From Actinomyces slackii (GTDB lineage Bacteria > Actinomycetota > Actinomycetes > Actinomycetales > Actinomycetaceae), in contig NZ_LR134363.1 in assembly GCF_900637295.1 (NCBI RefSeq), positions 2,914,001 to 2,978,000 of the forward strand: a stretch of 64,000 nucleotides of DNA, read 5' to 3'. Below, piece after piece: positions 30,064-53,347 of this stretch. Every line of letters starts with the position of its first letter. Position 1 is the stretch's first letter. Below the pieces are notes generated by a model, which searched no databases, had not been told where the DNA came from, and worked only from the letters and a program-made list of their open reading frames with translations. Both the position numbers and the translations under genes were made by a program.

Positions 30064-31458
30064 CCGATTCCTCCCAGAGTCTCCTGGTTGATCGACCCGC
30101 GATCCACAAAATGACCCAGCCCCTTCGCTCCGCCCCCATTACAAGGACATCCTCACTACTACGAGCCAGTCCGCCAGCATGCCCAGCAACGGTACTCCGT
30201 CTCTTGCGGTTCATCCGCTCCAAGACTCTCCCTATCACCACCCCAACTGGGGCGCCTGTATCCAGGCATGCCTTCCCACGTTCCACGCAAGAGCCGCAGA
30301 TCAGGCTCACGCCGCCTCCATGCCGGGCACCGCCTGGCCAGCAATACGGGCCCTCCGCCAGACTCATCCCAGGCCAAAAAGTAACACCCGGTTCTGATGC
30401 CACCTATTCAATAACGACACGTCAACAGCGGTTCGCTCGCGCTCGTCTTCCTGATCCCCACCTGACGCCTACACCCGGCGCCTTTTCCACATCGCTCACC
30501 ACGCTCCCGTCACCAGTCGCGCAGCATGCGGCGGTTTGAAGCCTCCGCCCGCACAGCGGCTCCGAAGGGCCAGACCCCTTCATCTCTCACGCAGCCTCAA
30601 GCACAGCACCGCATCACCTACACACGCATGCAGCACCCCACCCTTCGTGGCACACCTTTTTTCAAGAACTCGTTCTCCTGACGCAGCTCGCGGACCTCGC
30701 GCCGAAGCCGAGTGATCTCAGCCGCCTCCGCGGCTGCCTCCTTCTCCTGATCCGTGGCGTGCTCCTTCCTGTGCTTAGCGACCTAGTTGCCCACCGTCTG
30801 AGCCACCAGACCATAGGAGGCCGCCACCGACGCTATCGACCGCTCCTTGTCGATCACCTCGCGCACCACTTGTTCCTTGAACTCCTCAGAGTACTTCGCC
30901 CTTGACATGGCTCCATCCTATCGAATCAAAGGAAGACGAAAATCCTCCCCTGTCCGAAAAACACCACTCACCCCAAACCCGTCTGGACGACCGATTACAC
31001 AGCTTCAACACCTTTACTCTTGGGAACCACAAGTATGTAATAGACACTCATTCCATGCACCCCTATCTATGCAGAGAGCGGTAAGAAGAAAATACTGATC
31101 CGCTGCCCAACTCCCAAAAAATTGACGTTGAAGAGCGCCACATCCGACAGGAAAACGCACCGCGAAGTCTCCGTCTAGGTCAATAGTCACCTCAATATCC
31201 CTGAATCGCAGCCGACTTTTCTCAAGTGAAAACCATGCTTTATATGCAGACTCTTTTATACTAAAAAGTAGGCTATCTACGAAAACTCTATCAGTTAAAA
31301 CACTCAACTTGGCTGTCATCGCTAGTTCTCTTGCCGACGCTATCCTATTTAGAACTCCAGCCTTCAATGGCCGATTTATTTCAGCATCTATCCCGATGGT
31401 CGAGACTTCCCGGCGCAGTGCCACGGCTGCAGCATGGTAACCGTTTCTGTGAGTCATA

Positions 31459-32362
31459 GGGTGTTATTCATGTGGGGGTTACCAGCCTGTTCTGTAGAGT
31501 TCGAGTTTGGTGATCAGGGTGATGATGCTGGGGAGCTCTGCCAGGCGGTGGCGGTAGCCGGTGGATAGGATCTTCCATTTCTTCAGCGTCGCGATGGTGT
31601 GCTCGATGGCGGCGCGCGTGGATGACACGGCTCTGTTGAAGTCTTTCTCCCATTCCAGACGATCTCTTCCCGGCGTCTTCTTGATGGGGGTCAGTGCGCC
31701 ATGAGCGGTGTATGCGGTATCGGCGATCCAATCGGCGCCGGTGAGGATCGTGTCCCAGCCGCACAGGCTCAAGGCGGCGCTGTCGTGACGTGAGCCGGGC
31801 ACCGGGTCCGAGACCGCCACCAGGGTGGCGTCGGTGGTGGCGGCGACCTGGACATTCAGGCACTGGGCATGGTGCTTGCCCGAGTAGTTGGCCTTCTCGA
31901 CCTGCCTGCCGGCTGCGGGCCTGTTACCAGTGGGGATCGGCGTGCCATCAACGAGCAGCAGGCTGCCCTGAGCCACTGCCTGGGACAGAGAGATCCCACT
32001 CATGGCCAGCACATGGGTCAGCAAGGGGACCATGCGCCTCCAGATCCTGGAGACGGTGGGCTGGGAGACGCCGCACATGTCGGCGGCCAGGGCCTGGGAG
32101 ATGTTATGGCGCGCCAGAATCAAGGTCAACTCCACCTGCTGCCTGAGCCCCAGGCGGTAGCCCAATAGACTCTGGCCCCGAGATTCGAGCACCTCTTCGA
32201 TGCGCCCGACAAGCTCATCGATATCCTCATCGCACAGCCCCGTGGTAGACTCGTAATGCATCGGCCGCCTCCCCAAGAGAATCGAGTGTGGTAACCCAAT
32301 TCTCTCCCGAGACGGCCGATGCACCAACTAACGACACGAACAAACCCCCATGAATAACACCC
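31459..32362 (-). mobile_element. 904-bp IS5/ISL2-type insertion sequence, copy 1
   Basis: The terminal inverted repeats begin GGGTGTTATTCATG at 31459 and end with its complement at 32362. It is flanked by ATA direct repeats (31456-31458 and 32363-32365), a 3-bp target duplication. It encodes one transposase. The second copy at 53413-54316 has the same length and orientation. Confidence 0.93.
31479..32261 (-). CDS. IS5/ISL2-group DDE transposase (copy 1)
   Basis: 260 residues from the ATG at 32261, preceded by GGGGAGG. An N-terminal helix-turn-helix (ADMCGVSQPTVSRIWRR) is followed by a DDE_Tnp_4 catalytic domain: LLVDGTPI, GADWIADTAY and RAAIEHTIATLKKW supply the D, D and E. Looks intact and is probably responsible for both copies in this window. 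Confidence 0.92.
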   Translation of the reverse strand: MHYESTTGLCDEDIDELVGRIEEVLESRGQSLLGYRLGLRQQVELTLILARHNISQALAADMCGVSQPTVSRIWRRMVPLLTHVLAMSGISLSQAVAQGSLLLVDGTPIPTGNRPAAGRQVEKANYSGKHHAQCLNVQVAATTDATLVAVSDPVPGSRHDSAALSLCGWDTILTGADWIADTAYTAHGALTPIKKTPGRDRLEWEKDFNRAVSSTRAAIEHTIATLKKWKILSTGYRHRLAELPSIITLITKLELYRTGW

Positions 32363-32637
32363 ATACTTCCTACAATCCCGCAAGGCCACACAGGTTCGCC
32401 ATTTCCACATGGCACCATTGACGCACGATCGAAGCCAAGCTTCGCCAGAGCGATCTCTGCACAAGCTCTCACTGAAGTAAATTCCCTAATTCTTTTTTTG
32501 TGTGCAGTTCTCATGTAGGAAATCTCTTCAGGATAGAGCTGAGCGTAAAGGCTTCCACGAGCCTCTGCGACAGACACCTGAGGAAGCACTAAGGACCCCA
32601 TTGACGCCCTCACTGTGTAGGTTTGTCTATCATGCAT

Positions 32638-33255: not shown

Positions 33256-34596
33256 TTACTCGTTGCGAAGCATCTCTGCAACTTCGAAGGCCATCTCAAG
33301 CGATTGTTCATGATTGAGCCTGGGGTCGACGAGCGTCTCATAACGCTCACTCAGATTAGCTTCGCCGATCTGAGCGCCTCCGCCGAGTACTTCAGTCACG
33401 TCATTACCAGTAAGCTCGATATGAATGCCGCCAGGAATCGTGCCTAGCGCTTTGTGAACCTCAAAGAAACCTCGGACTTCGTCTATGATCGCATCGAAGC
33501 GACGTGTCTTGTAATTACCCCTGGACACGATCGTGTTGCCATGCATCGGGTCAGCTATCCAGGTAACGGGACGGCCGTCAACACTTGCAGCTTCTATCAG
33601 CCTAGGTAGAACGTCACGAATACGGTTCGAACCCATCCGAGTTATGAAGGTAAGACGACCCGGATCACCCGCCGGGTTGAGCCGCTCAATCAGCGACGAA
33701 ACTTCGAGAGGACTAGTGGCAGGCCCAATCTTAACAGCCACTGGGTTGACAACGCTAGAAAGAAAAGATACATGGGCGTGTTCAGGGCTACGGGTCCGCT
33801 CACCGATCCACAGCAGATGTCCGCTAGCACAGTAGCGTTGTCCCGACAGGAAGTCATTACGAACCATAGAATCTTCATACTCCAACTGCAAAGCCTCATG
33901 GGAAGCGTACAGGTGCACCTGACGTAGCGTATCAAAATCGACTCCTGCAGCTTCCATGAACCGCATCGCGCGATCGATTTCGTCTGCGAAGTCCTCAAAG
34001 CGCATGTATGCTGGATTACTTGTGAATCCCTGATTCCAAGAATGCACTCTACGTAAGTCTGCATATCCGCCTGTCGTAAAAGCACGTATAATGTTTAATG
34101 TAGTTCCAGCCCGTAGATAGGCTTCCAACATACGGGAAGGATCGGGCGTACGAGCCTCGCTTGTGAAATCGTACCCATTTATGGAATCACCGCGATAGAC
34201 AGGAAGACTAACACCATCACGAGTCTCGACATCAATGCTACGAGGCTTAGCATACTGACCTGCGATACGGCCAATCTTCACAACAGGCATGGAAGCACCA
34301 TAAGTCAGAACGGCAGCCATTTGAAGAATAGTCTGGACCTTACGCCGTATACTTTCAACGCTATCGTAGAAGGACTCGGCACAGTCGCCGCCCATAAGGA
34401 CAAAACTACGTCCACGCCCTGCCTCAGCCATGCATTTACGAAGAGAATCGACTTCTCCACCAAATACGAGTGGTGGTCGCGACCGCAAATCGGTCAAGAC
34501 TGCCTTTAACGCATCTGTGTCAGGGTAAATAGGCTGTTGAGCGGCCGGCAGCTCCCTCCAAAATGATGGGTATTCTGCACGTTTATTATCAACCAA
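33256..34596 (-). CDS. Class II DAHP synthase (plant/PhzC type)
   Basis: 446 residues starting at TTG 34596, with GGAGG 4 bases upstream; the frame remains open to 34686 but that would overlap the previous gene. Family blocks: LPAAQQPIYPD, GGDCAESF (metal-binding Cys), KIGRIAGQYAKPRS, HLLWIGERTR, NPVAVKIGP and DPMHGNT. Condenses phosphoenolpyruvate and erythrose-4-phosphate, the entry into the shikimate pathway. A class II copy inside a biosynthetic cluster usually raises chorismate supply for a chorismate-derived product; here PabAB and PabC-like genes sit directly upstream. Confidence 0.93.
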   Translation of the reverse strand: MVDNKRAEYPSFWRELPAAQQPIYPDTDALKAVLTDLRSRPPLVFGGEVDSLRKCMAEAGRGRSFVLMGGDCAESFYDSVESIRRKVQTILQMAAVLTYGASMPVVKIGRIAGQYAKPRSIDVETRDGVSLPVYRGDSINGYDFTSEARTPDPSRMLEAYLRAGTTLNIIRAFTTGGYADLRRVHSWNQGFTSNPAYMRFEDFADEIDRAMRFMEAAGVDFDTLRQVHLYASHEALQLEYEDSMVRNDFLSGQRYCASGHLLWIGERTRSPEHAHVSFLSSVVNPVAVKIGPATSPLEVSSLIERLNPAGDPGRLTFITRMGSNRIRDVLPRLIEAASVDGRPVTWIADPMHGNTIVSRGNYKTRRFDAIIDEVRGFFEVHKALGTIPGGIHIELTGNDVTEVLGGGAQIGEANLSERYETLVDPRLNHEQSLEMAFEVAEMLRNE

Positions 34597-34669
34597 GGGG
34601 CCTCCATATATCTCGAAGAAGATGTCCGCGGACAACGGATGTAGCAAAGGAAAACAACCGAAGTCACAA

Positions 34670-35389
34670 CTAAATCTTGTCCGCAAGCTCCCACAGGAGC
34701 GAATTTAACCACGATACATCAATTGAACAAGATAGAGAGCTCTTGACATTCTCAGTCACATCACTATCGCAATCAAAAAAACTCCATTCGGTGACATACC
34801 TAACACCAGAGAAAGCATTCAAAAATAAAACCTCCGTACCTAATAACTCCTCTATAGAGAAGCCTTCGGATTCTATCTCCACTCGAAATCCACTATCGGA
34901 AACGATATCCGCAACTTGTTCGACTGTGACGGAGCGCATAGCTCTAGGATGATGTCCTATGGTCACCACCGAGCCAGCTACAAGAAGCAGACTCGAAAAT
35001 ATGCCTTCGATGACGAACCCGTGCTTGTCAACTAAGAGGCCCTCATCGCATCCACGCTTATGTGATATCGTCATTCTAGAGCGTAACCAGGCTAAGTCAG
35101 GCCCCTTGACCAGCGGCGCAACACGTTCGTCACAATGTCCACACGCATCAACGATAATGCTACTAGAAAAAGGCCTATCGGGGCGCATATCAAGCTCAAT
35201 AGCGCTGTCCGAACAATAGACGATAGGGTTGCAGCTGCGTACGCCTTGACGTTCGAGGACCTCCCACTTGGCCTTAAGCATGTTTCGAAACTTGTTCGAG
35301 CGATAACCATTAAGCCCCAAGCGTCTTAGATGACCATCAAAATTGCGCACACGCCCCTCAACCATGCGAAAGGAGGTTACCTTCAACAC
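34670..35389 (-). CDS. Aminotransferase class IV protein, probable 4-amino-4-deoxychorismate lyase
   Basis: 239 residues, GTG at 35389 with GGGAG 7 bases upstream. SFRMVEGRVRNFDGHLRRL matches the N-terminal pattern of class-IV PLP proteins. The PLP lysine is probably that in VKGPDLAWL, followed by the VDKHGFVIEG strand. In this context (next to PabAB) the likely reaction is elimination of pyruvate from aminodeoxychorismate to give 4-aminobenzoate. A D-amino-acid or branched-chain aminotransferase role is less likely given the neighbours. It ends 73 bases before the DAHP synthase start. Confidence 0.78.
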   Translation of the reverse strand: MLKVTSFRMVEGRVRNFDGHLRRLGLNGYRSNKFRNMLKAKWEVLERQGVRSCNPIVYCSDSAIELDMRPDRPFSSSIIVDACGHCDERVAPLVKGPDLAWLRSRMTISHKRGCDEGLLVDKHGFVIEGIFSSLLLVAGSVVTIGHHPRAMRSVTVEQVADIVSDSGFRVEIESEGFSIEELLGTEVLFLNAFSGVRYVTEWSFFDCDSDVTENVKSSLSCSIDVSWLNSLLWELADKI

Positions 35390-35440
35390 TGTGACTCCCG
35401 AAACGTTGCCATCGCCTAAAGCTCACAAACCAGCCTTCTA

Positions 35441-36157
35441 TTATGCCTTTGCGGCGGCAATCCGAACAGCAGGTCGAACACGCATTGGCGAACTTCCTCG
35501 AGTTGGCTTACCTAGCCGCTGCCGAACCTGGCCGTGGAGAACCGTGCCAGATGCGACCTTTCCGTCAACAAGACCCTCACCAACGAACAGAGTGCTTGTC
35601 CAGCGGGCACGCAATTCAGAATCCGGAGAAACCAAGTTTTGCAACACGAGCGAGCACCAAAGCTGGCGAGTCATCAACCTACGAGTATCCACTCCATCAA
35701 TGGAGTACACTCCCTGGTGAGCAGACACCACGTCGTTGTAACTTCCCATGGCGAGCCCAGCGTCGGAAACAACCGTCGCAAAAAGTGTCCACGGTGAATC
35801 CAGGTCAGCATTGTTCACTCCTTCTCCGAGACGCTCATCTACGAAGTCAGGTACGACAATCTCAGTCTGATCACTTCGCACATACTCTTGCAACTTGGGC
35901 CGTACATCAAAAAGATTTGGCGAAGTTACCAACAATGCGCCATAATGTACGGAGTCCGCGAACTTACATTCAGCGAAGTTAGCAGACATCAACTTGCACA
36001 CACGATCGAGCTTGCTCCAGGTATCCTGTCTAAAGGCTCCGGCGAGGTAATCCTCAGTCGGTTGCGGTACACCAGCCTCAGCGAGTGCCTCCAGCACGGA
36101 ATCATTAGTGTTCCAGCCACTAGCAACTAGGCTCTTGAGGTAGCAATTGTCAGACAT
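35441..36157 (-). CDS. Unknown protein inside the polyketide/4-aminobenzoate operon
   Basis: 238 residues, ATG at 36157 with GGAGAG upstream, same strand as its neighbours and only 70 and 51 bases from them. I do not recognise a family. It is soluble, with no signal peptide or membrane segment, Asp/Val-rich and acidic in the middle, with a basic C-terminal end. Blocks that look conserved-like: a DSPWTLFATVVSDAGLAM stretch and LFVGEGLVDGKV. Its placement between pabAB and pabC argues for a role in handling or activating 4-aminobenzoate, but that is only a positional guess. Confidence 0.7.
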   Translation of the reverse strand: MSDNCYLKSLVASGWNTNDSVLEALAEAGVPQPTEDYLAGAFRQDTWSKLDRVCKLMSANFAECKFADSVHYGALLVTSPNLFDVRPKLQEYVRSDQTEIVVPDFVDERLGEGVNNADLDSPWTLFATVVSDAGLAMGSYNDVVSAHQGVYSIDGVDTRRLMTRQLWCSLVLQNLVSPDSELRARWTSTLFVGEGLVDGKVASGTVLHGQVRQRLGKPTRGSSPMRVRPAVRIAAAKA

Positions 36158-36227
36158 GTCTACTCTCCTTGATGTCGCTTCACAGTGCGGTAAATGCCGT
36201 ATGCGGCCGACCAGGCTGCATTGTCGA

Positions 36228-38294
36228 TTATAAGAACACTCTCACCAGTGCCTTGGCCTTCAACAACATCTCTCGATACTCTTCGTCCGGATCAGAGTCA
36301 AGAACAATCGCACCTCCAGATCCTATCCCGATCTCATCATCGTAGGCGACTGCCGTTCTAATAACAACGTTCAGGTCTGCCGCCCCATCGTACGAGAGGT
36401 AACCTATGCTACCAGAGTAAATCCCCCGAGCAGAAGTCTCTAGGCGATCAATAATGTCTGTTGTTCGCACCTTTGGTGCCCCTGTCATCGAGCCAGGCGG
36501 AAAACTTGCCTGGATGGCGTCGATCGTGTCGCGATCGTCACGAATATCTCCGCGAATAGTAGACACCAACTGATGGACTGTCTCGTACGACTCGACCATC
36601 ATATAGTCGGGAACCGTAACCGAGCCAGGTTTACACACGCGACCCAGATCGTTACGCACCAAATCGACGATCATAAGATTCTCGGCAACAGTCTTTCTAT
36701 CCGCTGCCAACGCTTCTCTTCGCTTAGAGTCGGTAGCTGGGTCAAGGCTACGAGGAGCTGTTCCTTTAATGGGACGACTTCTAACCACGCCGTCGGAACT
36801 CACGGTTAGAAAACACTCAGGCGAGCTGCAGTAAACCGTAAGCCCGCCGAGTTTAAGGAACGCTGCATACGGAGCTGGGTTCGAGGCGCGGAGCTCAAAG
36901 TACTTCCGCAAACTCGCATCATCATCATAGCCTGCATGAAGAATATTAGTCAGGCATACTTCATAGGTGTTCCCCTTGTGGAGTTCAGACTTAATCTTTG
37001 AGATTTGCTCGACATAGTCATCTCTTGACCGTGCTAGCTTGCGAACAAAATTGTCATCGGGAAGCTCGGAAGAACATGAAACGGTCGTGCTTCCGCTCTC
37101 AGACGCAGTGTTGTCTTTCCCGAGCCTACTGCTCCACTCCTGAAAGCTGTCACGCAGTTGCTCAGGCCAACTTGCTCCGTCTGCGCTGTCGCCGATCTCG
37201 ACAGCGTAGGCACGGTCTTCGACGTGATCCAACACCACATAATTAAGGCTCTTCACCCAGATAGAATCCGGAGTCGATGCTGAGTGAAATGCATTAAGGC
37301 CACACTTGGCCTTCATCTCATAACCGAAATACCCCACGTAGCCACCTTTGAATGTTCCGGGAATAGCACTCATGTTGCTAATCTTCGGCTGCCGCAACTT
37401 GCTCTTTAAATAACCAAATACATCAGTATGCAGCCTCTCTCTCACCAATCCGTCGCGCTCGATCGTCAGTACATCGGCTTCAGCAGAATCATAACGAACT
37501 AGGTCGTTTCTCAAGACTCCTGCAGGCACAAAATATGAGTATTTGGCGTTCGCATTCGAAACGCGGGCACAATCTAGCCAAACCCAATTTCCATACATAC
37601 AGTCAAAGAACTCCGCCAGCTTAACGCCATCCGCGTTGCTAGAGAGCTGTAATACGTTAGCGTAGCGAACTAACTCATCGTCACGAAATTTACTATCCAC
37701 CTTCCCATGATCAACGAGCCAATCCAGCGCCAGATTTAAAAAATTAGCAATAATCTGTTCGCCATAGGTCGTTGCAACAGACTCAGGATGAAACTGAACC
37801 CCCCAGTGAGGACGCCGACGGTGTCGCAGGCCCATCACCAGTCCATCGCTTTCAGACCGTGCTATCACCTTCATGTCATCGGAGACCGGTTCGCTAACTG
37901 ACAAAGAGTGGTATCTAACAGCCGAAAAACGACGCGGTACACCCGCGAAGAGCGGGTCACCATAGTGCACCATACCTCCTACAAACCCATGGAGCGGCTC
38001 AGGAGCCTCTACGACCCTTCCCTGCGCAGCGACAGCGAGTCCCTGATGGCCAAGGCATACTCCGAGCACTGGGAGCTCGGGAAGGCTGTACACAGTGGAC
38101 GCATAACCAAAATCTCCAAGGTTAGCAGGATTGCCAGGACCTGGCGACACGACCACCGCATGAAACATGCTAAAATTCATGACTCTCAGACTGTCATCAT
38201 CGTTTTTAAGCACCTGCACATCTCCAAAACGTGCAAGAACCTGGTACAGATTGTAGGTGTAGGAATCATAATTGTCGATGAGAAGAATCTTCAT
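36228..38294 (-). CDS. pabAB: Aminodeoxychorismate synthase, PabA-PabB fusion
   Basis: 688 residues from the second ATG (38294), which has CGGAGC 8 bases upstream. Residues about 1-195 are a class I glutamine amidotransferase (PGPGNP, GVCLGHQ with the nucleophile Cys, HPES). About 300-688 are the chorismate-binding PabB half (PIKGTAPR, VDLVRNDLGRV, PGSMTGAPK, GSGGAIV). The Lys in PIKGT is the residue that marks ADC synthases, in contrast to PIAGT of anthranilate synthases. Converts chorismate plus glutamine to 4-amino-4-deoxychorismate. The order amidotransferase then synthase differs from phenazine PhzE (reverse order). First dedicated step toward 4-aminobenzoate. Confidence 0.93.
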   Translation of the reverse strand: MKILLIDNYDSYTYNLYQVLARFGDVQVLKNDDDSLRVMNFSMFHAVVVSPGPGNPANLGDFGYASTVYSLPELPVLGVCLGHQGLAVAAQGRVVEAPEPLHGFVGGMVHYGDPLFAGVPRRFSAVRYHSLSVSEPVSDDMKVIARSESDGLVMGLRHRRRPHWGVQFHPESVATTYGEQIIANFLNLALDWLVDHGKVDSKFRDDELVRYANVLQLSSNADGVKLAEFFDCMYGNWVWLDCARVSNANAKYSYFVPAGVLRNDLVRYDSAEADVLTIERDGLVRERLHTDVFGYLKSKLRQPKISNMSAIPGTFKGGYVGYFGYEMKAKCGLNAFHSASTPDSIWVKSLNYVVLDHVEDRAYAVEIGDSADGASWPEQLRDSFQEWSSRLGKDNTASESGSTTVSCSSELPDDNFVRKLARSRDDYVEQISKIKSELHKGNTYEVCLTNILHAGYDDDASLRKYFELRASNPAPYAAFLKLGGLTVYCSSPECFLTVSSDGVVRSRPIKGTAPRSLDPATDSKRREALAADRKTVAENLMIVDLVRNDLGRVCKPGSVTVPDYMMVESYETVHQLVSTIRGDIRDDRDTIDAIQASFPPGSMTGAPKVRTTDIIDRLETSARGIYSGSIGYLSYDGAADLNVVIRTAVAYDDEIGIGSGGAIVLDSDPDEEYREMLLKAKALVRVFL

Positions 38295-38340
38295 TGTGCT
38301 GCTCCGATTCATGGTTGTTGCTGAACTATAGTACTACTCT

Positions 38341-39045
38341 CTATCCGCATCCTCCAGCATGCCCTTCAGCAGATACGTCGTGAGAAGTCGGTTCAGTTGA
38401 TCTGTCACCAAGCGATCGTGGCTGGGCCTCCTGACACCGTTCTCTGTAGCACGCCTCAGCGTCATCCAGCCTGTCATAGCCCCAAAAAGGTTCGCGTCCG
38501 ACCTTGAATAATGGAACTCCAAACACACCGTCTTTGTCCATCCGTGTCGCAACCATGTCGAGCACATTGTGCCGAGTACTATCCGTAGCTCTAGGGTGCG
38601 ATCCAACGCTCTCCAGCACGCTCATCAACTCCGATTCACTACCCACGTCGAGACCCTTAGTCCACCTTGCCCGACTGATGGCCATAACCAGACGCTTGCC
38701 CATCTTCTGATCTTCATCAAGCACCTGTTGGCAAAGCACCGTGCTTATCTCCCAATTGACTGCTGTGTCGATCGGCCATGTAATTCGCTCGATGCCGTGC
38801 TTCAAAGCAAGCCGACGAACATCCCTAAGAATATAGAGGTGCTTAGCCTTGCTCATAGGTGTATAGTGAAATCTGACACCGTCCGCTTCAAGGCGCTCTT
38901 GAGTGCCCTTCTGAGGCTCAAAGAACATTCTCATTGTAGACACGTCGAGCAGCCTGCTGCATCCGTCTTGTGCAGCACGCTCTAACGCAAGCCAAGAATA
39001 TGGGCTTCGTATTGAAGCGTACCAAACGACATCTTTCTCAATCAT
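38341..39045 (-). CDS. DsbA-like/kappa-GST family isomerase (2-hydroxychromene-2-carboxylate isomerase type)
   Basis: 234 residues; the ATG overlaps the ketoreductase stop by 4 bases. The N-terminal thioredoxin-fold start is VWYASIRSPYSWLALER, with SPYSWLA at the usual active-site Ser. The C-terminal GVFGVPLFKVGREPFWGYDRLD is the classic ending of HCCA isomerases. The last 30 residues are extra and polar. Relatives isomerise double bonds with a thiol cofactor; in a polyene cluster it could set E/Z geometry. That role is inferred from context, and actinobacteria would use mycothiol, not glutathione. Confidence 0.82.
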   Translation of the reverse strand: MIEKDVVWYASIRSPYSWLALERAAQDGCSRLLDVSTMRMFFEPQKGTQERLEADGVRFHYTPMSKAKHLYILRDVRRLALKHGIERITWPIDTAVNWEISTVLCQQVLDEDQKMGKRLVMAISRARWTKGLDVGSESELMSVLESVGSHPRATDSTRHNVLDMVATRMDKDGVFGVPLFKVGREPFWGYDRLDDAEACYRERCQEAQPRSLGDRSTEPTSHDVSAEGHAGGCG

Positions 39046-39788
39046 ACCAACATTCCTCCGTCTACATAGATGGTCTGCCGAGTAATGTAGCTGCTTGCCG
39101 AACTTCCTAAAAACAACACCGCCTTCGCTATGTCCTCAGGCTGTCCGAATCTTCTAAGCGGAACTCGATCAAGAAAGCTGGCTTTCTTGTGTTCCACCAG
39201 TTCTTCTGTCATGTCAGTAACAATAAACCCAGGCGCAACAACGTTAACCCTAATCTGCCATCTAGCTAGCTCCACAGCAGCTGACTTACAGAGCCCGATC
39301 AGACCTGCCTTCGACGCGCTGTAGTTGGCCTGACCGATGTTGCCATCCCGACCAACTATGGACCCTACTAGGACGATAGACCCGCTTTTCGACCGCATCA
39401 TCTGCGTACTACTTGCGCGACACAAATTGAACGCACCCGTCAGATTGGTTTGTACCACGCTTTCCCACAGCTCGGGAGACATGGCTGGAAGGAGCGCATC
39501 GCCTACAATGCCTGCCGAGTGTACCGCTAGATCCAACCGACCGTACCTATGCGCGACCTCGTCGACGAATGCCTTCACCTTGTCCGCGTTCCTGACATCT
39601 ACCTGGCGACTAATCCAACTGTCGCCGCCAATCTCTTGCAGAGTAGAATCAGCACTTGCAGTGTCGGACTGGTAGCAAAATCCGCCGCTATATCCGACAT
39701 TAGACAAATGACGAACAATAGCGCGCCCGATTCCTCTCGAGCCACCGGTGACAACCGCTACAGGCCCTTGGCTTTCTGCTTGCTTCAT
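39042..39788 (-). CDS. FabG-type 3-oxoacyl-ACP reductase (SDR)
   Basis: 248 residues. GGSRGIGRAI is the NADPH-binding loop; VLVGSIVGRDGNIGQANYSASKAG contains the catalytic Ser, Tyr and Lys. A ribosome site GGAGGG overlaps the stop of the preceding dehydratase gene, one base apart. Reduces the beta-keto group after each KS/CLF condensation, which is what makes this a reducing, not aromatic, type II system. Confidence 0.92.
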   Translation of the reverse strand: MKQAESQGPVAVVTGGSRGIGRAIVRHLSNVGYSGGFCYQSDTASADSTLQEIGGDSWISRQVDVRNADKVKAFVDEVAHRYGRLDLAVHSAGIVGDALLPAMSPELWESVVQTNLTGAFNLCRASSTQMMRSKSGSIVLVGSIVGRDGNIGQANYSASKAGLIGLCKSAAVELARWQIRVNVVAPGFIVTDMTEELVEHKKASFLDRVPLRRFGQPEDIAKAVLFLGSSASSYITRQTIYVDGGMLV

Positions 39789-39789
39789 A

Positions 39790-40593
39790 TTACCCTCCGA
39801 TGCTATCTATGGCAATCAACATCCGGGACACCTTCACACACTTTCTGCTGTTGGAAAATACATCTACGTCGGTGATAACCGCCCTCCCAATATGGCGAGT
39901 TGACCGAAATCGAAACTCGACAACTGACTGTTCGGGAATCTCTGACAGAATATCTATGCGCTCAATCCCTGCGAGCAATCCAAAGCTGAAAGGCTGATCA
40001 GAAAGGACCAGGATAGCACTCTGAGCTGCCGATTCGAGGAGGAGGGGCACGGGCACGGCGTGATGTGAGTTCTCGCGACTACATTGACCGAAACGATAGC
40101 TCACGGTGTAAGGATCCGAATCGCTGGGAGCGTTCTCTACAAACAGCATTGGATGCCTATGTCTCACCTTACTGACCAATTCCTTATCCAGGTTCTCCTC
40201 ATGTGCGGACACCATGGATAGGTCCACCCGATCGTATCCTTCAGGACGATACGTGCTGCCAAGCGTTATATCTGCGCTTGCGGCAATGTTCCCATCCAGC
40301 AATGCTTCACAATGTGTCCAGCCGCCCGCATTGTCGTCGACAACGACCACAAAACTGTCTCCTGGAGATATTCTTCTCCTAAATCTGATTCTTCGACAGC
40401 TTGTAGCTCCTGCTTCCGCAGCGCCATGTCTACATGCGTCTAGGAAGGTGGCAAGAATAAAGTTTCCAGGCACAATAGGATTGCCAGGGTAGTGGCCTCG
40501 AAACAGCTCGTGGGATGGACTAAATTGCGCTCTGTAGCGCTTTGATCTCCCTGTCCGTTCTTCCGACGCAATATTAGCAGCTACAATTGACAT
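39790..40593 (-). CDS. Double-hotdog FabA/FabZ-like dehydratase
   Basis: 267 residues, with AAAGGAGG before the ATG. Two hotdog halves: residues about 15-130 with HELFRGHYPGNPIVPGNF (FabZ-type catalytic His region) and about 145-267 with RHRHPMLFVEN and VPLLLESAAQSA. Expected to dehydrate beta-hydroxyacyl-ACP to enoyl-ACP. Such fused pairs are seen as dehydratase components of aryl polyene and polyene type II systems; the second half lacks a clear catalytic His motif and may be structural. Confidence 0.82.
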   Translation of the reverse strand: MSIVAANIASEERTGRSKRYRAQFSPSHELFRGHYPGNPIVPGNFILATFLDACRHGAAEAGATSCRRIRFRRRISPGDSFVVVVDDNAGGWTHCEALLDGNIAASADITLGSTYRPEGYDRVDLSMVSAHEENLDKELVSKVRHRHPMLFVENAPSDSDPYTVSYRFGQCSRENSHHAVPVPLLLESAAQSAILVLSDQPFSFGLLAGIERIDILSEIPEQSVVEFRFRSTRHIGRAVITDVDVFSNSRKCVKVSRMLIAIDSIGG

Positions 40594-40665
40594 TGTTAAG
40601 TCCTCCTTTCGCTTGCTTGCTTCATGTCCTGCGCTGCAGCTCTTGTCATACGGCTATGATCGACG

Positions 40666-41682
40666 TCAGGCGGGAGACACCAGCGCAGCCGTCACGGTCT
40701 GATGCAGTTCGTCGGTAGTGATTATAAGCCATGGTTCGTCCGCGGCCAGATTGTCTAGCGCCAAAGACAGCGCCAAGCCGCCACCCCAAGCGCCTAAGCT
40801 GCACCCCTCCCAGCCTAGCTTAACGGTCCGTTTCGAGCCGAACTCGACTCCGACGTGACCAAGGACGGCATCACACAACTCCGATTCACCAACCGCAGTC
40901 ACCACTGCGGGTTCGCCAACCGACGTCTGAGACAAAGAGATGTCCCTAAACCAACGCTCTACCGAATACTGCAAGTCAGACAGGCGAGCCGCTTGCACGG
41001 GACGCCAAAGACGCAACTCGGCCTGTGGCCGCGATTGATCAAAAACATTCGGCTTATGGGTAACCAAGAAACTAGCGGCGCCCTCAATAATTTCTGTGTG
41101 CTGTTCTCTTGCGGCGGACTCTATCGTATCACGCTCAGGAGACGATTCCTCAGAAACTCCGACAACAAGACCAGAAGCCTGACCGGAGCGCATCAGCCGC
41201 TGCCCGTAGGTTGCTGCTACGAAAAGTGATCCAGCACCTCCGGCAATAGTCGCATTGGGTCCCTTCAAGCCGTTCCAGATCGCTGCCTGAGCTGCAGCAA
41301 AGTTCATCACTGTGTTTGGAAATTTTGCAGGATTAACAAGATAGGGGCGGGACTCAGTAAAACTGTCTTGAGTAAAGTTCACGGTACTCGAGATTGAACC
41401 GAACGAAGTCCCGACAATCACTCCCAGCTGATCTTTAGGAACAACTCCTGTCTTCCAATCACTGCCAAGACGTTTCACCGAACTCAGCAGGAGTGCGCTA
41501 CTCCTATCTAGATTACGGATGCTTCGCTCATTCAGCTCGCCATGCGCATCGAACAACGTATGTTGTTTTGCGCTGCGCAACCCGCTACTATCTAGCTTCC
41601 GCAAGCTACTGAGAGAGCACTCCAACCTAGACACCACACTGCTGTTCCAGACATAGAGCGGCTCGGACGACGATAAACTCAT
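40666..41682 (-). CDS. Chain length factor (KS-beta-like), catalytic residues lost
   Basis: 338 residues from the ATG at 41682, with GGAAGG 5 bases upstream; an ATG at 41700 overlapping the KS stop is an alternative. Same fold as the neighbouring KS, but the three catalytic positions are replaced: the Cys region reads IAGGAGSLF, the first His region TAVGESE and the second GCSLGAW. This is the hallmark of a chain length factor that pairs with KS-alpha and limits chain length. Shorter than most CLFs (about 400). Confidence 0.88.
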   Translation of the reverse strand: MSLSSSEPLYVWNSSVVSRLECSLSSLRKLDSSGLRSAKQHTLFDAHGELNERSIRNLDRSSALLLSSVKRLGSDWKTGVVPKDQLGVIVGTSFGSISSTVNFTQDSFTESRPYLVNPAKFPNTVMNFAAAQAAIWNGLKGPNATIAGGAGSLFVAATYGQRLMRSGQASGLVVGVSEESSPERDTIESAAREQHTEIIEGAASFLVTHKPNVFDQSRPQAELRLWRPVQAARLSDLQYSVERWFRDISLSQTSVGEPAVVTAVGESELCDAVLGHVGVEFGSKRTVKLGWEGCSLGAWGGGLALSLALDNLAADEPWLIITTDELHQTVTAALVSPA

Positions 41683-41696
41683 GACACCTTCCGATC

Positions 41697-42902
41697 TCAT
41701 TCTGCTGATTGCCGATCAAGTTTCACACGACGTAGCAAAACAACAGCGTTGTTTCCTCCGAAGGCCAATCCATCGTTCATTACCACGTCTAGACGTGCCT
41801 GCCTTGCCCTATTTGGTACACAATCAACAGGACATTCAGGATCAGGCGTCTCGAAGTTGATGGTTGGGGGAATCACCTGGTTTTCCATCGCAAGCAAGCA
41901 GCCGATGACAGCCAAGGCGCTTGATGCGCCCATTGTGTGTCCGAGCATCGATTTCATAGAAATGACGGGAGGTAAGTGCCCATTAAACACGCTCATGAGT
42001 GCGTTGCACTCACTGACATCATTGGACCGTGTTCCAGTTCCATGAGCCGAAATGAGATCAACCTCCTCTGCCTGAATATCAGCAAGCTGCAAAGCCTTGT
42101 TCATGCATGCCTTCACCCCTTCCACGTCGGGAGCCACAGGATGCTTAGCGTCGCAGTTGATCGCATACCCCGCGACTTCTGCGTAGATGTGAGCCCCTCT
42201 TGCAACCGCATGCTCAAGAGATTCAAGCACCATCATTCCAGCGCCTTCGGCTGTAAGGATTCCTCTCCTGTTAAGATCGAACGGCTGGCAACGTTCGGGA
42301 GCGACAGTTCCAAGGCGATAGAATCCTGTAAAAGTCTTCCTACATAGTGCGTCGGCACCGCCAACAATCGCAAGCTCGACATCGCCAGAACGTATAGCGT
42401 CATATCCTGCGCCCACAGCGTAGTTTCCGGCGCTACATGCGGTAGCTATTGTCATGTACTCGACATCCTTTAAGCCGAGACTACTTACGACACTTCTCGA
42501 AAGATTCAGAGGAAATGACTGAATTGCCTCCATGCATGACGGCTTCGTTTCAGACAAAAGACGTTCGGATATCGCATCAAGGCACTGCGATTCTCCATCT
42601 GTAGTGCCAACATAGACTGCCGTCGCCGCTCTACTCAACCGATCCGAAGAAAGCTGCGCGTCTTCCACTGCGAGTAGGGCGGCGGTCACGGCGAACTGTG
42701 ATGCGCGTTCCAATTGCGGATCTCGTGGCAGATTGGCTACTTCGCAAGCGGTAGTCTGTTCGAATCCATCTGTAGAGAATGCACTAATTTCTGAGGCACC
42801 GCTGGACCCGCTGATTAGCGCATCAGCATACTCATCCTTGCCAGTCCCGATCGGAGAAACGGGACCTATTCCGGTTACTACAACTCTCGTTTTCGAATTC
42901 AT
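41697..42902 (-). CDS. Ketosynthase KS-alpha (FabF-like)
   Basis: 401 residues with all catalytic residues: Cys in TACSAGN, His in SAHGTGT and His in MLGHTMGA, plus the GGNN loop near the C-terminus. Carries out decarboxylative Claisen condensation on ACP-bound chains together with the CLF directly downstream. The KS-CLF pair distinguishes this from a FAS-II FabF duplicate. Confidence 0.94.
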   Translation of the reverse strand: MNSKTRVVVTGIGPVSPIGTGKDEYADALISGSSGASEISAFSTDGFEQTTACEVANLPRDPQLERASQFAVTAALLAVEDAQLSSDRLSRAATAVYVGTTDGESQCLDAISERLLSETKPSCMEAIQSFPLNLSRSVVSSLGLKDVEYMTIATACSAGNYAVGAGYDAIRSGDVELAIVGGADALCRKTFTGFYRLGTVAPERCQPFDLNRRGILTAEGAGMMVLESLEHAVARGAHIYAEVAGYAINCDAKHPVAPDVEGVKACMNKALQLADIQAEEVDLISAHGTGTRSNDVSECNALMSVFNGHLPPVISMKSMLGHTMGASSALAVIGCLLAMENQVIPPTINFETPDPECPVDCVPNRARQARLDVVMNDGLAFGGNNAVVLLRRVKLDRQSAE

Positions 42903-43295
42903 CTTGGCCTTTCCTTGGTTTCGGCGGCGTCGCGAGCCAGATGGACCGCCTAACTAAAGGTAGTGTTCGGACTGTGTATTCTAAATGATTGCGAAGAGGC
43001 CTCCTGTCAAAGAACCTTTCTCTGTGCCCATCTACTCCGGATCGGAATTACGACACACAGCCCCAGTTCTACACAGTCCCTAGGCCTCTCAGTACGCGGT
43101 CCAGAGTGAGCATCATGAAGTGTGCCGACAGATCCATAGACTGTCATCGGCCGATATAGAGGTGCACGGCATGGGATGTAATAGGACCGTCGCACTCCAA
43201 AACTTCACCTGCTCTGCTCACCTTTCACACCGCTGTAGTGTGTGCTACCTCCTGGCTCGAGTATTATTTCAACTCAAGCCAAAGATCGTGTGCAG
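42903..43295. other. Unusual 393-base gap between the KS and ACP genes
   Basis: No gene recognised; the open frames are short and without ribosome sites. It is the largest gap inside an otherwise tight operon and could mark a lost small gene (for example a second ACP) or an internal promoter for the KS-to-DAHP synthase part. Confidence 0.5.
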
Positions 43296-43538
43296 TCAGC
43301 CATGCTTATCTACGATAGCATAAATACTGTTCATACACGTCATCTCGGCGAGCAGGCTGTTGTCAAGGTTCAGGTTGTAATCTCGATCCAGGAGTGCAAG
43401 AATCTCAAGTGCCAACATCGAATCGGCTCCGAGATCTTCAAATAGTGTGTCGTCAGCTACCTTAACAGGGTCGACTTCTAGAATGTCGCACACCTTGTCG
43501 TGGAGTTCGGCGCGCTGGCTGCTGTCTAGCTTGGTCAT
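43296..43538 (-). CDS. Acyl carrier protein
   Basis: 80 residues; GAGAGGAC before the ATG. The phosphopantetheine serine lies in LGADSML (about residue 40), and the helix II sequence LALEILALLDRDY is typical. Carries starter and growing chain. The cluster's own PPTase gene is disrupted, so holo-ACP formation would depend on another PPTase in the genome. Confidence 0.95.
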   Translation of the reverse strand: MTKLDSSQRAELHDKVCDILEVDPVKVADDTLFEDLGADSMLALEILALLDRDYNLNLDNSLLAEMTCMNSIYAIVDKHG

Positions 43539-43714
43539 GACTTACAGTCCTCTCTCTGTCGGTGATTGCCTCTTTCGAAGGCGCATGATCGGATGAATCT
43601 TATTCTTCGTTAGCGGTCTACTCCTCCTTTGTGCGATGCGTCTGCACTTGGAAATGTTCTTTCTCTTAAAAATGCTGTCCCTAGCGCCTTCTATCACTCA
43701 GTCGGGGTGCTTCT

Positions 43715-45598
43715 TCAACTAGAAGCCTGGCCGAAAATTGGCTTCAGATAGTCAGCTAGTGTCTCAGGATCACCAAGGGGCAAAACTGCCCCAACATACT
43801 GGTCTGGCCTCACTACGACAATGGCCCCCTCGTCCGAAACGCAAGCCTCGCTAAACACATCAAAACTTGTTGAGCAAGCGTACACCTTATTGAGATTGGA
43901 CAGACGATACTTGCCAACACGAGGCTTAAATACTTGAGGAACGTCCGGCAAGTTCAGTTCACGATGATTCTGGGGGTAAACAACGTGCACATCAAAAAGC
44001 GCATCATCGTCATAGGACGTCTGTGACTTGTATGTGTTCAAAGGCGACCTTGAAGAAACGCTTAGCCAATCCGCAAATTTACCGAGCCTGTCGTTGTGGC
44101 CCCTTCCGTTAGGGCGATCAGCAAACACATACAGACGCCAGCGGCCATCCGCAGTGGCCTGGTGTCCAAGATGAACTGTGTTCATGTCACACACTCTTAC
44201 TACCTCATGAGACTTGAACCGCTTTCCAATCGGGTACCCTGTTGCGATTGATTGATGCGTTTGGCTGGCCGTCAGCATAGACCGGGAGTACATTGTCATG
44301 AATCCTGCGGGAAACTCAGCTGTCTTGACGTAGTACTCTTCGAGTGCCTCAGGAGTGTGCAACTCGTCCACTTTCTTTGCGAAAAGCCCATACCATTCAC
44401 GATCAAAGTCAATGAGATTCTGCGCAACCTCCATACGTTCGCTGTTGTAGGTGTTTAGGATGCTACTAGACGCAATTCCGGATGCTACATACCCGATTTT
44501 CCATCCGATATTGAATCCGTCTTGAAGCGAAACGTTCATTCCCTGCCCCGCTTTTGCTGAGTGCGTGTGACATGCGTCTCCCGCAATGAACACGTTAGGT
44601 GTTTTACTCCCTCCGACACAAGCATCAAATGAGTCGGTAATTCGATGCGCCACCTCATAGACGCTGTGCCAGGCCACATGCTTCACGTCAATGGAATAAG
44701 GAGCTAGGATCCTATTAATTTTAGCAATGCTCTCGTCAGCGGATGTAGCCCTAATTCTGTCCTGATTTTCTGCGGTGACATCGCCCAAATCAACGTACAT
44801 CCGGAAAAGATATCCACCCTCTCGTGGAATCAGTAGGAGACTTCCACTGGATTTGGACTGGATGGCACATTTCATCCTGATGTCAGGGAAGTCTGTGTCA
44901 GCCAGAGCGGCGAGCACTCCCCAAGCCCTATTGGCCTGATTCCCTTGGAGTTCGCGGCCTATCGATGCCCGCACTGATGAGTGTGCCCCGTCCGCACCTA
45001 TCAGATATTTGGCATAGACTACCTTTTCAGCTTCGCCGTCTTCAGTTGCGAAATGAGCCCTGATAGGAAAATCAGTTTGTTCTGAATGCTCGAGCCTCAG
45101 AAATTTGACTCCGTAGTAAGGAGATGTGGGTCTTGGCGCGTTTTGCATGTATTGTTGGAAGTACGCAAGTACTCTTGGCTGGTTCGAAATAAGATGTGGA
45201 AATTCGCTGAGATTTCTTGGATCATCTTCAGTGACCGCGGCGCGCACAATTCTTGTCTCATCGTCAGGGTCCGGCCGCCAGAAATTCATTCCTGTCATCT
45301 GATAGGATTCTTGTACAAGTTGATCCGCGAATCCAAACGCTTGAAAGGTCTCTACAGTTCGTTTCTGGATTCCTTCCGCACGCCCATATTTAAGCGGCTC
45401 ATGGCTTTTCTCTACAACAAGTGTTGAGACCGTAGGGAAGTAGGACAACTGAGCAGCGGCAATCATTCCTGCAGGGCCAGCACCTACAATGATAACGTCC
45501 GTCTCTTTTGGCATCTCTCGCATGAGCGGTTCGCTTGGCTGCTGGCACATCCTAGGATCGCTAGCGGAATAATCGTTGTAGTGAAATTCTAGTGCCAT
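43715..45598 (-). CDS. Phenol/3-hydroxybenzoate-type FAD monooxygenase
   Basis: 627 residues, with AAAGGAG upstream of the ATG. PHBH-fold: VIIVGAGPAGMIAAAQL (FAD), YLIGADGAHSSVR (DG motif) and FIAGDACHTHSAKAGQGMN (second FAD motif), followed by the C-terminal thioredoxin-like domain (about 460-627) characteristic of phenol 2-monooxygenase and MobA. Such enzymes hydroxylate an aromatic ring ortho to a hydroxyl or amino group. In this cluster the likely substrate is 4-aminobenzoate or the finished aryl product; inferred from context. Confidence 0.88.
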   Translation of the reverse strand: MALEFHYNDYSASDPRMCQQPSEPLMREMPKETDVIIVGAGPAGMIAAAQLSYFPTVSTLVVEKSHEPLKYGRAEGIQKRTVETFQAFGFADQLVQESYQMTGMNFWRPDPDDETRIVRAAVTEDDPRNLSEFPHLISNQPRVLAYFQQYMQNAPRPTSPYYGVKFLRLEHSEQTDFPIRAHFATEDGEAEKVVYAKYLIGADGAHSSVRASIGRELQGNQANRAWGVLAALADTDFPDIRMKCAIQSKSSGSLLLIPREGGYLFRMYVDLGDVTAENQDRIRATSADESIAKINRILAPYSIDVKHVAWHSVYEVAHRITDSFDACVGGSKTPNVFIAGDACHTHSAKAGQGMNVSLQDGFNIGWKIGYVASGIASSSILNTYNSERMEVAQNLIDFDREWYGLFAKKVDELHTPEALEEYYVKTAEFPAGFMTMYSRSMLTASQTHQSIATGYPIGKRFKSHEVVRVCDMNTVHLGHQATADGRWRLYVFADRPNGRGHNDRLGKFADWLSVSSRSPLNTYKSQTSYDDDALFDVHVVYPQNHRELNLPDVPQVFKPRVGKYRLSNLNKVYACSTSFDVFSEACVSDEGAIVVVRPDQYVGAVLPLGDPETLADYLKPIFGQASS

Positions 45599-45650
45599 TT
45601 CTGGTCACTCCTTTCTGAGGTCTATTCGTTACTTATTACGGGCCCGCTGT

Positions 45651-46079
45651 CTATCCACAGATGCGCATGTGCACTCTCACGCCGGTCATGACTTTTCCGG
45701 TGTCAGGAAGCGCTGCGTAGAGACGAATTGTCACCATGTTTTGTTCAACCGATTCCACTTTTCCGGAAACTCGGAATCCCCCTCCTCTTTCGTCGTCCGG
45801 TACTACGACTGGGGTTGAAAAGTTCGATACCGAATACTCCATAAACTCCATGGCAGGCCCAAAGTAGTCCGCTATTGCCCGTACAGCTGTAGCGATGTTA
45901 AGGGTGCCATGGGATATGACGTTTGTTAGTCCGACTTCTTTAGCAATCTTTTCGTTCCAGTGTGTCCCAGTAAAGTCACCGCATGCTCCACAGTATCTCA
46001 TCAGGTCGACTCTATGGAGTCGTATCTCCTGCTCCGGAACTTCGTCTCCGACCGATACTTGCACTGCATCATAACTCAT
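45651..46079 (-). CDS. MaoC/HadB-like dehydratase subunit
   Basis: 142 residues from the ATG at 46079, with AGGAGG 7 bases upstream; the frame opens at 46112 but without that site. It reads CGACGDFTGTHWNEKIAKEVGLTNVISHGTL, with the hydratase D/H catalytic pair spread over TGTHWN and SHGT. Pairs with the next gene in the manner of HadB-HadA of mycolate FAS-II, so it probably supplies the catalytic half of an (R)-hydroxyacyl-ACP dehydratase. Confidence 0.86.
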   Translation of the reverse strand: MSYDAVQVSVGDEVPEQEIRLHRVDLMRYCGACGDFTGTHWNEKIAKEVGLTNVISHGTLNIATAVRAIADYFGPAMEFMEYSVSNFSTPVVVPDDERGGGFRVSGKVESVEQNMVTIRLYAALPDTGKVMTGVRVHMRICG

Positions 46080-46101
46080 TGTCGAACCTCCTGTCATATG
46101 A

Positions 46102-46557
46102 TTAGATTTCAATATTTCGAGACAGAATGGTATTGGTTACTTCGGCGACAGGTCTTCCGTCATTGTCGGTAATCTCATGTCGCATTGTGAATTCATCATG
46201 AATCGACACTTCTCTAATGTCAGTGATGGTCGTGGTTTGCCACAGTTCGTCCCCAGGAATGATTTGTCGATAGATCTTAACCTTCTGTGCTCGATGCACA
46301 CAAACTGGCTGCTTTTTCTTCCCAAATTCCGGATCATACAAAGGCCATCCTCCATATCGAAAGAAAAGGCACACCATGAAACTCGGAGGTGCGATTACGT
46401 CCTCATATCCTAGATGCTGGGCCGCGGCAGCATCGTAGTAGATGGGGTTTGTTTCTCCGGTTGCAATAGCATAGTCGCGAATTTTTTCGCGGCTCACTTC
46501 ATATGGGCCATCCGGACCATGTGTGCGCCCCAAAAAGTCCCTATTGAAAACTTTCAT
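46102..46557 (-). CDS. MaoC/HadA-like dehydratase subunit, first gene of the cluster
   Basis: 151 residues; AGGAAGGG before the ATG. The N-terminal hotdog segment (YEVSREKIRDYAIATGETNPIYYD) and APPSF resemble HadA/HadC N-terminal MaoC domains, which lack the catalytic dyad and bind substrate. It is 22 bases from the HadB-like gene. A separate dehydratase pair in addition to the double-hotdog protein is unexpected in a single type II PKS. Confidence 0.83.
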   Translation of the reverse strand: MKVFNRDFLGRTHGPDGPYEVSREKIRDYAIATGETNPIYYDAAAAQHLGYEDVIAPPSFMVCLFFRYGGWPLYDPEFGKKKQPVCVHRAQKVKIYRQIIPGDELWQTTTITDIREVSIHDEFTMRHEITDNDGRPVAEVTNTILSRNIEI

Positions 46558-52706: not shown

Positions 52707-53347
52707 GTCTTCACCGTAACATCCACAGCATGCAGGGTCAACCCTGCCCCACATCGCCGAGACTAGATGACGCGACAACAATTGGACTGTCTGTTGCGAC
52801 GACGGGAAAAAGTCTGGATCGCTGATCCGAGTCAAGTCTGATCACTGACGCCCTACAACGACCTTAGGCTTGACTTGTTTTTTGGCAGTACCAACAAACA
52901 TAGCTGCTTTTTTTGAATGCTGAAACGGCCGCTCTGGCCGCCAATTCAAGAGGGCGATGCTGGGCTTGTATCACTACATCATATTTCAACATTCACTGCA
53001 TAGGTAAATTCAACTGACAGTCGCAATAAGCGAGCGTGAAATTGCGATGAGATCTATCCTATTCATATACACGGTGAGGCTTTCTCGCCAGAGTTAGTTG
53101 ACAGTGCTGTGAGGTCGTAGCGACAGCGCTTGTTGGAGGAGCAGCAGAGTTGTGTCAGGTGGGTTGTTGGCGATGTCGGATCAGGCTATGGTTGGGCTGA
53201 GACTGAGGCAGGGCTGGTCGCTAAGGAGGATCGCTTATAATAATCGGTCGCGATATGTCGGTGGTCTGGTAAGAGACAGCCCGTAACCAGTAGAGCTTGT
53301 GGGTCATCAGCCGGTCGGCGCGGATGTGGCCGCACACCAGCGAAGAA
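52707..53347. other. AT-rich spacer upstream of the exporter gene
   Basis: No gene recognised. It includes the exporter's own promoter region and, past 53100, more GC-rich sequence leading into the IS3 fossil. No regulator reading frame is visible. Confidence 0.5.

Follow-up and report, generated by a model that had tools for sequence, protein, structure and literature searches.

A low-GC island of Actinomyces slackii that combines a polyene-type type II polyketide synthase with a putative 4-aminobenzoate pathway

Why should a reducing type II polyketide synthase (PKS) be encoded in one operon with genes for the synthesis of 4-aminobenzoate (pABA)? The question is raised by a stretch of 64,000 nucleotides from Actinomyces slackii (NCBI RefSeq assembly GCF_900637295.1, contig NZ_LR134363.1, positions 2,914,001 to 2,978,000 of the forward strand), hereafter referred to as the window, where 13 open reading frames (ORFs), all on the minus strand, occupy positions 33256-46557. 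An initial annotation had described this operon as a reducing type II PKS carrying its own 4-aminobenzoate pathway, a description supported by the enzyme families, by the clade of the ketosynthase subunit KS-alpha (KSα) and by the PIKGT motif of PabB. As to what the operon is for, our answer is tentative and has somewhat less than an even chance of being right: it would belong to an acquired island that makes a polyunsaturated chain joined to a 4-aminobenzoate-derived amine.

The 13 ORFs are open and uninterrupted, with intergenic gaps of -17 to 393 bases, and their products were scanned with Pfam and NCBIfam models. KS-alpha, the chain length factor (CLF), the acyl carrier protein (ACP), the FabG protein and the isomerase do lie in one operon, as first described, and each is matched by its family. 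In the order of transcription, the genes are as follows.

46102..46557, minus strand: HadA-like MaoC protein (Pfam FAS1_DH_region, 1.8e-24; E35 and Y40 where HadB has Asp and His)
45651..46112, minus strand: HadB-like MaoC dehydratase (Pfam MaoC_dehydratas, 1.6e-9; D46, H51)
43715..45598, minus strand: MobA-like FAD hydroxylase (best solved relative 2dkh; His135, Lys243 and Tyr268 kept)
43296..43538, minus strand: acyl carrier protein, the sole ACP in the operon (Pfam PP-binding)
41697..42902, minus strand: KS-alpha of the polyene type II PKS clade (best solved relative 6kxd_A; tree)
40666..41700, minus strand: chain length factor without the active-site Cys (best solved relative 6kxd_B; alignment)
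39790..40593, minus strand: double-hotdog dehydratase (FabA-like, 22.4 bits, just below the Pfam cut-off; weak FabZ matches)
39042..39788, minus strand: FabG-type ketoreductase (Pfam/NCBIfam)
38341..39045, minus strand: DsbA/2-hydroxychromene-2-carboxylate-isomerase-like protein (Pfam DSBA; weak match to 3fz5)
36228..38312, minus strand: fused PabA-PabB aminodeoxychorismate synthase with PIKGT (Pfam/NCBIfam; best solved relative 8hx6)
35441..36157, minus strand: orphan 238-aa protein (no family match)
34670..35389, minus strand: PabC-like class IV pyridoxal phosphate (PLP) enzyme (Aminotran_4, 1e-8; putative PLP lysine Lys111)
33256..34686, minus strand: second class II 3-deoxy-D-arabino-heptulosonate 7-phosphate (DAHP) synthase (TIGR01358, above cut-off)

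The GC content of the operon is 51%, that of the flanks 71% (1-27665) and 73% (54810-64000). The low-GC segment extends past the operon to include a split phosphopantetheinyl transferase (PPTase) gene (31014-32637) and a major facilitator superfamily (MFS) gene (51576-52835), and the whole block is read as an acquired natural-product island, foreign-looking and mobile-looking. No clean insertion site could be recognised, as the left neighbour of the island, read as icd, was matched at 1e-20 in none of the 20-kb stretches that surround the right neighbour, read as dop, in eight of eight relatives. The names icd, dop, aroA, menF and MenG are our presumptive assignments, made from the sequence without a family scan.

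The catalytic set of KS-alpha is intact (Cys156, His287, His322), and the CLF, rightly annotated as devoid of it, has three Cys residues (28, 276 and 300), none at the active-site position; these motifs, like those of PabAB below, are taken in their generally accepted functional roles. The best solved relatives of the pair are 6kxd_A for KSα and 6kxd_B for the CLF; 6kxd is presumably the ishigamide KS-CLF, and 6kxd_A would then be Iga11. The ishigamide system (iga) shares these relatives with the window, along with a discrete ACP, a ketoreductase (KR) and a dehydratase (DH), and it is not known to have pABA genes or a MobA-like hydroxylase.

Forty loci, fetched for relatives of the KS or CLF, were compared with the window. 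Twenty stretches cover 22 of the 25 CLF places outside the own genome (G1035, G1109 and G1066 were left out); the four best non-own hits of one search and the three best of another (G011, G017 and G050) gave further stretches, and one set of 10 loci contributed all but L037. Absence of PabAB from a locus refers to stretches of 8-41 kb searched by tblastn at E 1e-5. The ketosynthase tree holds 38 sequences, with the genome's own FabF-like protein as outgroup, two rows of L100 dropped and no aryl polyene (APE) ketosynthase included. There, KSα groups with the proteins of L029 (an uncultured Micrococcaceae) and L074 (ultrafast bootstrap, UFBoot, 97) and falls with 6kxd_A into a 15-member polyene clade (UFBoot 96) that includes KSαs of Streptomyces, Kutzneria, Saccharothrix and further loci. 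It is 49% identical to 6kxd_A and 51-57% identical to the 13 other members, and every locus from which these 13 come has an isomerase match. A fatty-acid or glycolipid locus, a possibility set out for checking beforehand, was rejected, as KSα groups with the polyene PKSs and apart from the FabF-like protein. KSα, the Cys-less CLF, a discrete ACP, KR and DH thus support the prediction of a reducing (polyene) type II PKS. Three genus relatives have other reducing type II PKS loci (L052, L053 and L054; KS-alpha 43-44% and CLF 34-39% identical), with no PabAB match.

Three dehydratase proteins had been annotated and all are present, but they are better counted as two enzymes. Because HadA is without the Asp/His pair found in HadB, it is read as a non-catalytic partner, and HadA-HadB as a single dehydratase beside the double-hotdog protein, which has His34 in its first half and Glu187 in its second. 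The idea that HadAB is unique to the window was rejected, since three of the 40 loci have HadA-HadB matches, two of these together with an isomerase.

Matches to the isomerase occur in 28 of the 40 loci, as do matches to KSα, CLF, KR and isomerase together, and it is 47% identical to the isomerase of L029. Published sources are cited here and below from excerpts; in one of them the isomerase is reported in the skyllamycin (sky) and WS9326A (cal) clusters and in none of the other type II PKSs compared there, in which respect iga differs from the window, and KS, KR and isomerase are described as mining probes for clusters of cinnamoyl-containing nonribosomal peptides (PMC6510318). The protein is therefore read as a marker of cinnamoyl-type PKSs and would point to the cinnamoyl/Z-polyene branch. 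KS, CLF, ACP, DH, KR and isomerase are common to the window and the clusters of skyllamycin, WS9326A and kitacinnamycin (kcn), a likeness that is judged from homologues of KS, KR and isomerase occurring together and not from the Sky/Cal sequences themselves. To this set the window adds HadAB, the MobA-like hydroxylase, the DAHP synthase-PabAB-PabC-like module and the orphan protein.

The aromatic module stands as annotated, with family matches for a class II DAHP synthase, a PabA-PabB fusion and a PabC-like protein. PabAB has the PIKGT motif with Lys516 and the glutaminase Cys86, it scores above the cut-off of the PabB model TIGR00553, and its best solved relative, 8hx6, is an aminodeoxychorismate synthase. 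With a glutaminase, a chorismate-binding domain and the PIKGT lysine, it has the features of such an enzyme and is predicted to be one. Its gene starts 28 bases after the isomerase gene, within the PKS operon. The fused PabABs of Streptomyces plasmids, to which it is 45-47% identical, lie in type I PKS clusters or beside a DAHP synthase and a class IV aminotransferase; 639 plasmid records had a match, 30 were listed, and all eight relatives whose surroundings were read sit in biosynthetic loci. The tree of 16 fused PabABs, where the window protein forms a long branch with no resolved sister, does not by itself settle the clade, because that branch is unresolved and no housekeeping PabB was included.

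The protein at 34670..35389 has the class IV PLP fold and Lys111, and it is called only PabC-like because its best PabC model gives 24.3 bits against a cut-off of 260. The DAHP synthase shares 73% identity with the other class II copy in the genome, as against 55-56% with the copies in two cinnamoyl-type loci and 40-42% with those of the Streptomyces pABA cassettes, and so was probably recruited separately. Class II DAHP synthases lie near the cinnamoyl-type loci L031 (37-1329, Streptomyces) and L161, which have no PabAB match. A DAHP synthase, PabAB and a class IV aminotransferase also stand together in two Streptomyces plasmid loci. A putative dedicated 4-aminobenzoate pathway, formed by the DAHP synthase, PabAB and the PabC-like enzyme within the PKS operon, is thus supported.

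A further enzyme of the operon may act on this aromatic product. The FAD hydroxylase, initially taken for a phenol-type monooxygenase, does match the phenol-hydroxylase-type flavoprotein family of Pfam, but among solved relatives it scores 522.8 bits to 2dkh, a 3-hydroxybenzoate hydroxylase, and 310 to phenol 2-monooxygenase; this higher score and a retained carboxylate clamp led us to replace the phenol hydroxylase reading by a MobA-like one. In the 3-hydroxybenzoate 4-hydroxylase MobA/MHBH, the carboxylate is anchored by His135 and Lys247, and the substrate is contacted by Asp75 and Tyr271 (PMC3546652). Similarity to it extends over the full length, and the equivalents of His135, Lys247 and Tyr271 are kept (His135, Lys243 and Tyr268 in the window), whereas Asp75 is replaced by Glu and the hinge residue Gln73 by Arg. 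Because the MobA-type clamp is kept, a benzoate is a plausible substrate; the two replacements suggest one other than MobA's, and 4-aminobenzoate would be the obvious candidate.

The orphan protein was beyond the initial list, as were the split PPTase and the low-GC MFS gene. It has no family match in Pfam or NCBIfam, no plasmid match and no relative in viral contigs, and 395 other genomes gave two partial hits only, with E values of 0.002 and 0.009, taken as chance. Its gene has an AGGAG upstream and a codon GC like that of the neighbouring genes; an AlphaFold2 (AF2) model from the single sequence has a predicted local distance difference test (pLDDT) score of 31.9, too low to suggest a fold. 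As the sole operon member without an assignment it is our candidate for a joining enzyme, a role that is a guess.

From these enzyme families and their order we infer substrates, a joining step, a product and an activity as follows. The ACP, KS-alpha-CLF, KR and two dehydratases would assemble malonyl units into a polyunsaturated acyl chain, in which the DsbA-like isomerase would set one or more cis double bonds, in line with what has been proposed for chains of the skyllamycin type. The extra DAHP synthase would raise chorismate flux, PabAB would make aminodeoxychorismate, and the PabC-like enzyme would release 4-aminobenzoate, which the MobA-like flavoprotein might hydroxylate, either on the ring or by oxidative decarboxylation. 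The chain would then be coupled to the aromatic amine so formed, a step in which the orphan protein might act, and the product exported by the MFS protein.

The initial annotation had left open whether the chain is primed by 4-aminobenzoate or joined to it, and of the two we prefer joining; an aryl polyene primed by 4-aminobenzoate finds no support in that form, given the missing ligase and starter ACP and the isomerase. Priming is possible, if on the unlikely side: (hydroxylated) 4-aminobenzoate would serve as the PKS starter, with its loading ligase supplied from elsewhere in the genome or lost. Highly reducing type II PKSs that start from an aminobenzoate have been established, and such systems resemble the window in pairing a reducing KS-CLF with a dedicated aminobenzoate pathway (PMC10777205, PMC8000086). 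For avenalumic acid (ava) and p-coumaric acid (cma), 3-amino-4-hydroxybenzoate (3,4-AHBA) is loaded by an acyl-ACP ligase onto a separate ACP (PMC10777205), and it is the starter of the lower chain of the manumycins (PMC8000086). The window differs from ava and cma: its predicted precursor is 4-aminobenzoate from chorismate and not 3,4-AHBA, no ligase of the ava/cma type was recognised in the operon, and the operon has one ACP and hence no separate starter ACP. The lack of a ligase and a second ACP is one reason for favouring joining (the negative covers AMP-binding proteins of the operon; the remaining genome was not searched for a ligase). The other is that the PKS core resembles more closely the cinnamoyl systems, and that in sky and cal the finished chain comes to acylate the N-terminus of a peptide (PMC6510318).

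Priming draws some support from a plasmid of Streptomyces sp. NBC_00335 (NZ_CP108007, ~150-164 kb; L101, 25064-38968), where KS, CLF, ACPs, a PPTase, a PabAB fusion and a class IV aminotransferase lie together with two AMP-binding proteins. This locus differs from the window in those two proteins, in its two adjacent ACPs and in a diiron oxygenase; its PabAB is 40% identical and the better of its two KSs 33%, as against 51-57% for the KS-alpha clade from isomerase-bearing loci, and it has no isomerase or CLF match at 1e-5. The NBC_00335 cluster itself is possibly aminobenzoate-primed. The nearest product in the literature may be the aryl polyene spinamycin, reportedly made by a type II PKS from an aminobenzoate-like starter. 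Candicidin and mohangic acid also draw 4-aminobenzoate from in-cluster PabAB and PabC homologues, by modular type I PKSs with a CoA-ligase loading domain, unlike the window (PMC12387680).

Joining to an arylamine has weak points of its own. The foremost is the absence of a recognisable joining enzyme: the family scan matched no amide synthase, NAT-type acyltransferase, condensation domain or thioesterase among the operon proteins, and the orphan protein, to which the step was assigned by guess, has neither homologue nor fold. No NRPS (nonribosomal peptide synthetase) condensation or adenylation domain was found in the 13 proteins (the remaining genome was not scanned), nor did any of them match a desaturase that could bring about aromatisation; in both respects the window departs from sky, cal and kcn. 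It departs from them also in having a single KS-alpha-CLF pair, with no second ketosynthase in the family scan, and the nearest KSα loci, L029 and L074, carry further KS proteins absent from the window. Operon structure, finally, is all that links the pABA module to the chain.

The state of the PPTase also weighs against an active pathway, and it introduces the next explanation, namely that the island is decaying and silent, inactivated by insertion sequences (IS) and deprived of its joining gene. The features concerned lie on both sides of the operon.

32363..32637, minus strand: 5' part of an Sfp-type PPTase gene (4PPT_N)
31459..32362, minus strand: 904-bp IS inside the PPTase gene (DDE_Tnp_4; terminal inverted repeats, 3-bp target duplication)
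31014..31457, minus strand: 3' part of the PPTase gene (ACPS)
51576..52835, minus strand: MFS transporter (MFS_1, 3.3e-38; GC 0.491), with IS-rich DNA between it and the operon

A second copy of the IS at 53413-54316 is 95.7% identical to the first; both have the inverted ends GGGTGTTATTCATG, and their target duplications are ATA and TAC. Since the IS splits the cluster PPTase, the pathway may be weakened and possibly inactive unless another PPTase serves it. The case for decay is helped by transposase-like genes and by a group II intron protein in the surroundings of the island. The 13 biosynthetic ORFs, however, are all open, and the genome has four other ACPS-family matches, one of which shares ~43% identity with each part of the split PPTase. 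Decay of this kind, which is compatible with the pathway readings, seems to us quite unlikely. The mobile DNA at 27807-30063 and 47042-50720 comprises a group II intron reverse transcriptase/maturase, an IS4/5-type transposase and two integrase-core ORFs; the ORFs at 27807-28693 resemble IS3 remnants by eye. The MFS protein is a possible exporter; upstream of its gene, a low-GC ORF of 153 aa at 50804-51265 has no Pfam match. Outside the window (G000:C1:2200237-2256303), a region of ~50 kb with very long open frames, the longest of 4487 aa, in which KS matches recur, looks like a modular type I PKS and has an ACPS-family match alongside.

A different use for the pABA genes is suggested by the host genus. 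TIGR00553 is above its cut-off in one of 49 genus genomes, the present one; because this cut-off is strict (it was passed by four of 14 control genomes), the PabB/TrpE motif was read in addition, with the top hit of every one of the 48 relatives included. Among the resulting 53 stretches, 46 have PIAGT, the motif of anthranilate synthase, none has PIKGT, and seven have neither; of the weaker PabB-model rows outside this genome (27-114 bits), this reading covered 10 of 51, in eight stretches. In this genome the PabB model also hits a TrpE, which has PIAGT, and a gene taken from its neighbour to be menF, which leaves PabAB as the one PIKGT enzyme observed there. Dihydropteroate synthase is above cut-off in 49 of 49 genomes, and the genus therefore seems to scavenge 4-aminobenzoate; the island may be this genome's only source of it. 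A housekeeping origin of PabAB, the second possibility named for checking beforehand, is not supported, as no PIKGT-type PabB was seen in the stretches read from the 48 relatives and the PabAB relatives read lie in biosynthetic loci, folate being a possible side benefit. That the pABA genes serve chiefly for folate in a lineage unable to make 4-aminobenzoate, and owe their place beside the PKS to chance or to a selfish advantage, fits these genus data but is very unlikely, given the 28 bases between PabAB and the isomerase gene, an extra DAHP synthase and a benzoate-type hydroxylase that folate does not need, and the eight biosynthetic settings of PabAB relatives.

How new is the arrangement? 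Its parts and logic are already known. One of the 28 loci with KSα, CLF, KR and isomerase has a PabAB match (L045), and this is an anthranilate synthase with PIAGT; the NBC_00335 locus has the other PabAB match and no isomerase match, and because of it the notion that pABA genes beside a type II PKS are unique was rejected. CLF matches were found in 45 plasmid records, with surroundings read for four (NBC_01243, NBC_00503, ADI95-16 and NBC_00335); in ADI95-16 the CLF and PabAB matches are ~110 kb apart. Neither the hydroxylase nor the orphan protein is matched in any of the 40 loci, none of which combines a cinnamoyl-type core, HadAB, a MobA-like hydroxylase, a pABA module and the orphan protein, nor was a paper recognised in the literature searched as describing this combination. 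The second ketosynthase of Gram-negative APE clusters, ApeR, has no counterpart in the operon, with its one KS-alpha and one CLF. APE clusters carry two ketosynthases (PMC8358021). Against novelty weigh a survey of bacteria of the aerodigestive tract, which lists Actinomyces as one genus in which aryl polyene clusters occur (PMC8549736), and an oral survey with a flexirubin-like cluster in Actinomyces massiliensis (PMC6469967). In MIBiG, the first survey found a single cluster from Actinomyces. As excerpted, these do not tell whether the clusters have the gene set of the window.

A fuller form of the preferred reading, in which a polyunsaturated chain is joined to a 4-aminobenzoate-derived amine, can be given, unlikely though it is to hold in all its particulars. 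The product would be a natural product of a new type: a cis-containing, perhaps ring-closed polyene chain from a cinnamoyl-type type II PKS would be amide-linked by the orphan protein, as an enzyme of a kind not known before, to hydroxylated 4-aminobenzoate or to 4-aminophenol made by the MobA-like hydroxylase, and the mobile-looking island would be the sole 4-aminobenzoate source of a pABA-scavenging, probably host-associated lineage.

If joining is correct, a 4-aminobenzoate branch would be added to the isomerase-bearing type II PKSs, with a short gene list for a testable product, and the orphan protein would become a candidate for the missing acyl-arylamine joining step. The island also raises the testable question of whether a natural-product locus may lessen the need for 4-aminobenzoate where, as in this genus, the downstream folate step is retained.

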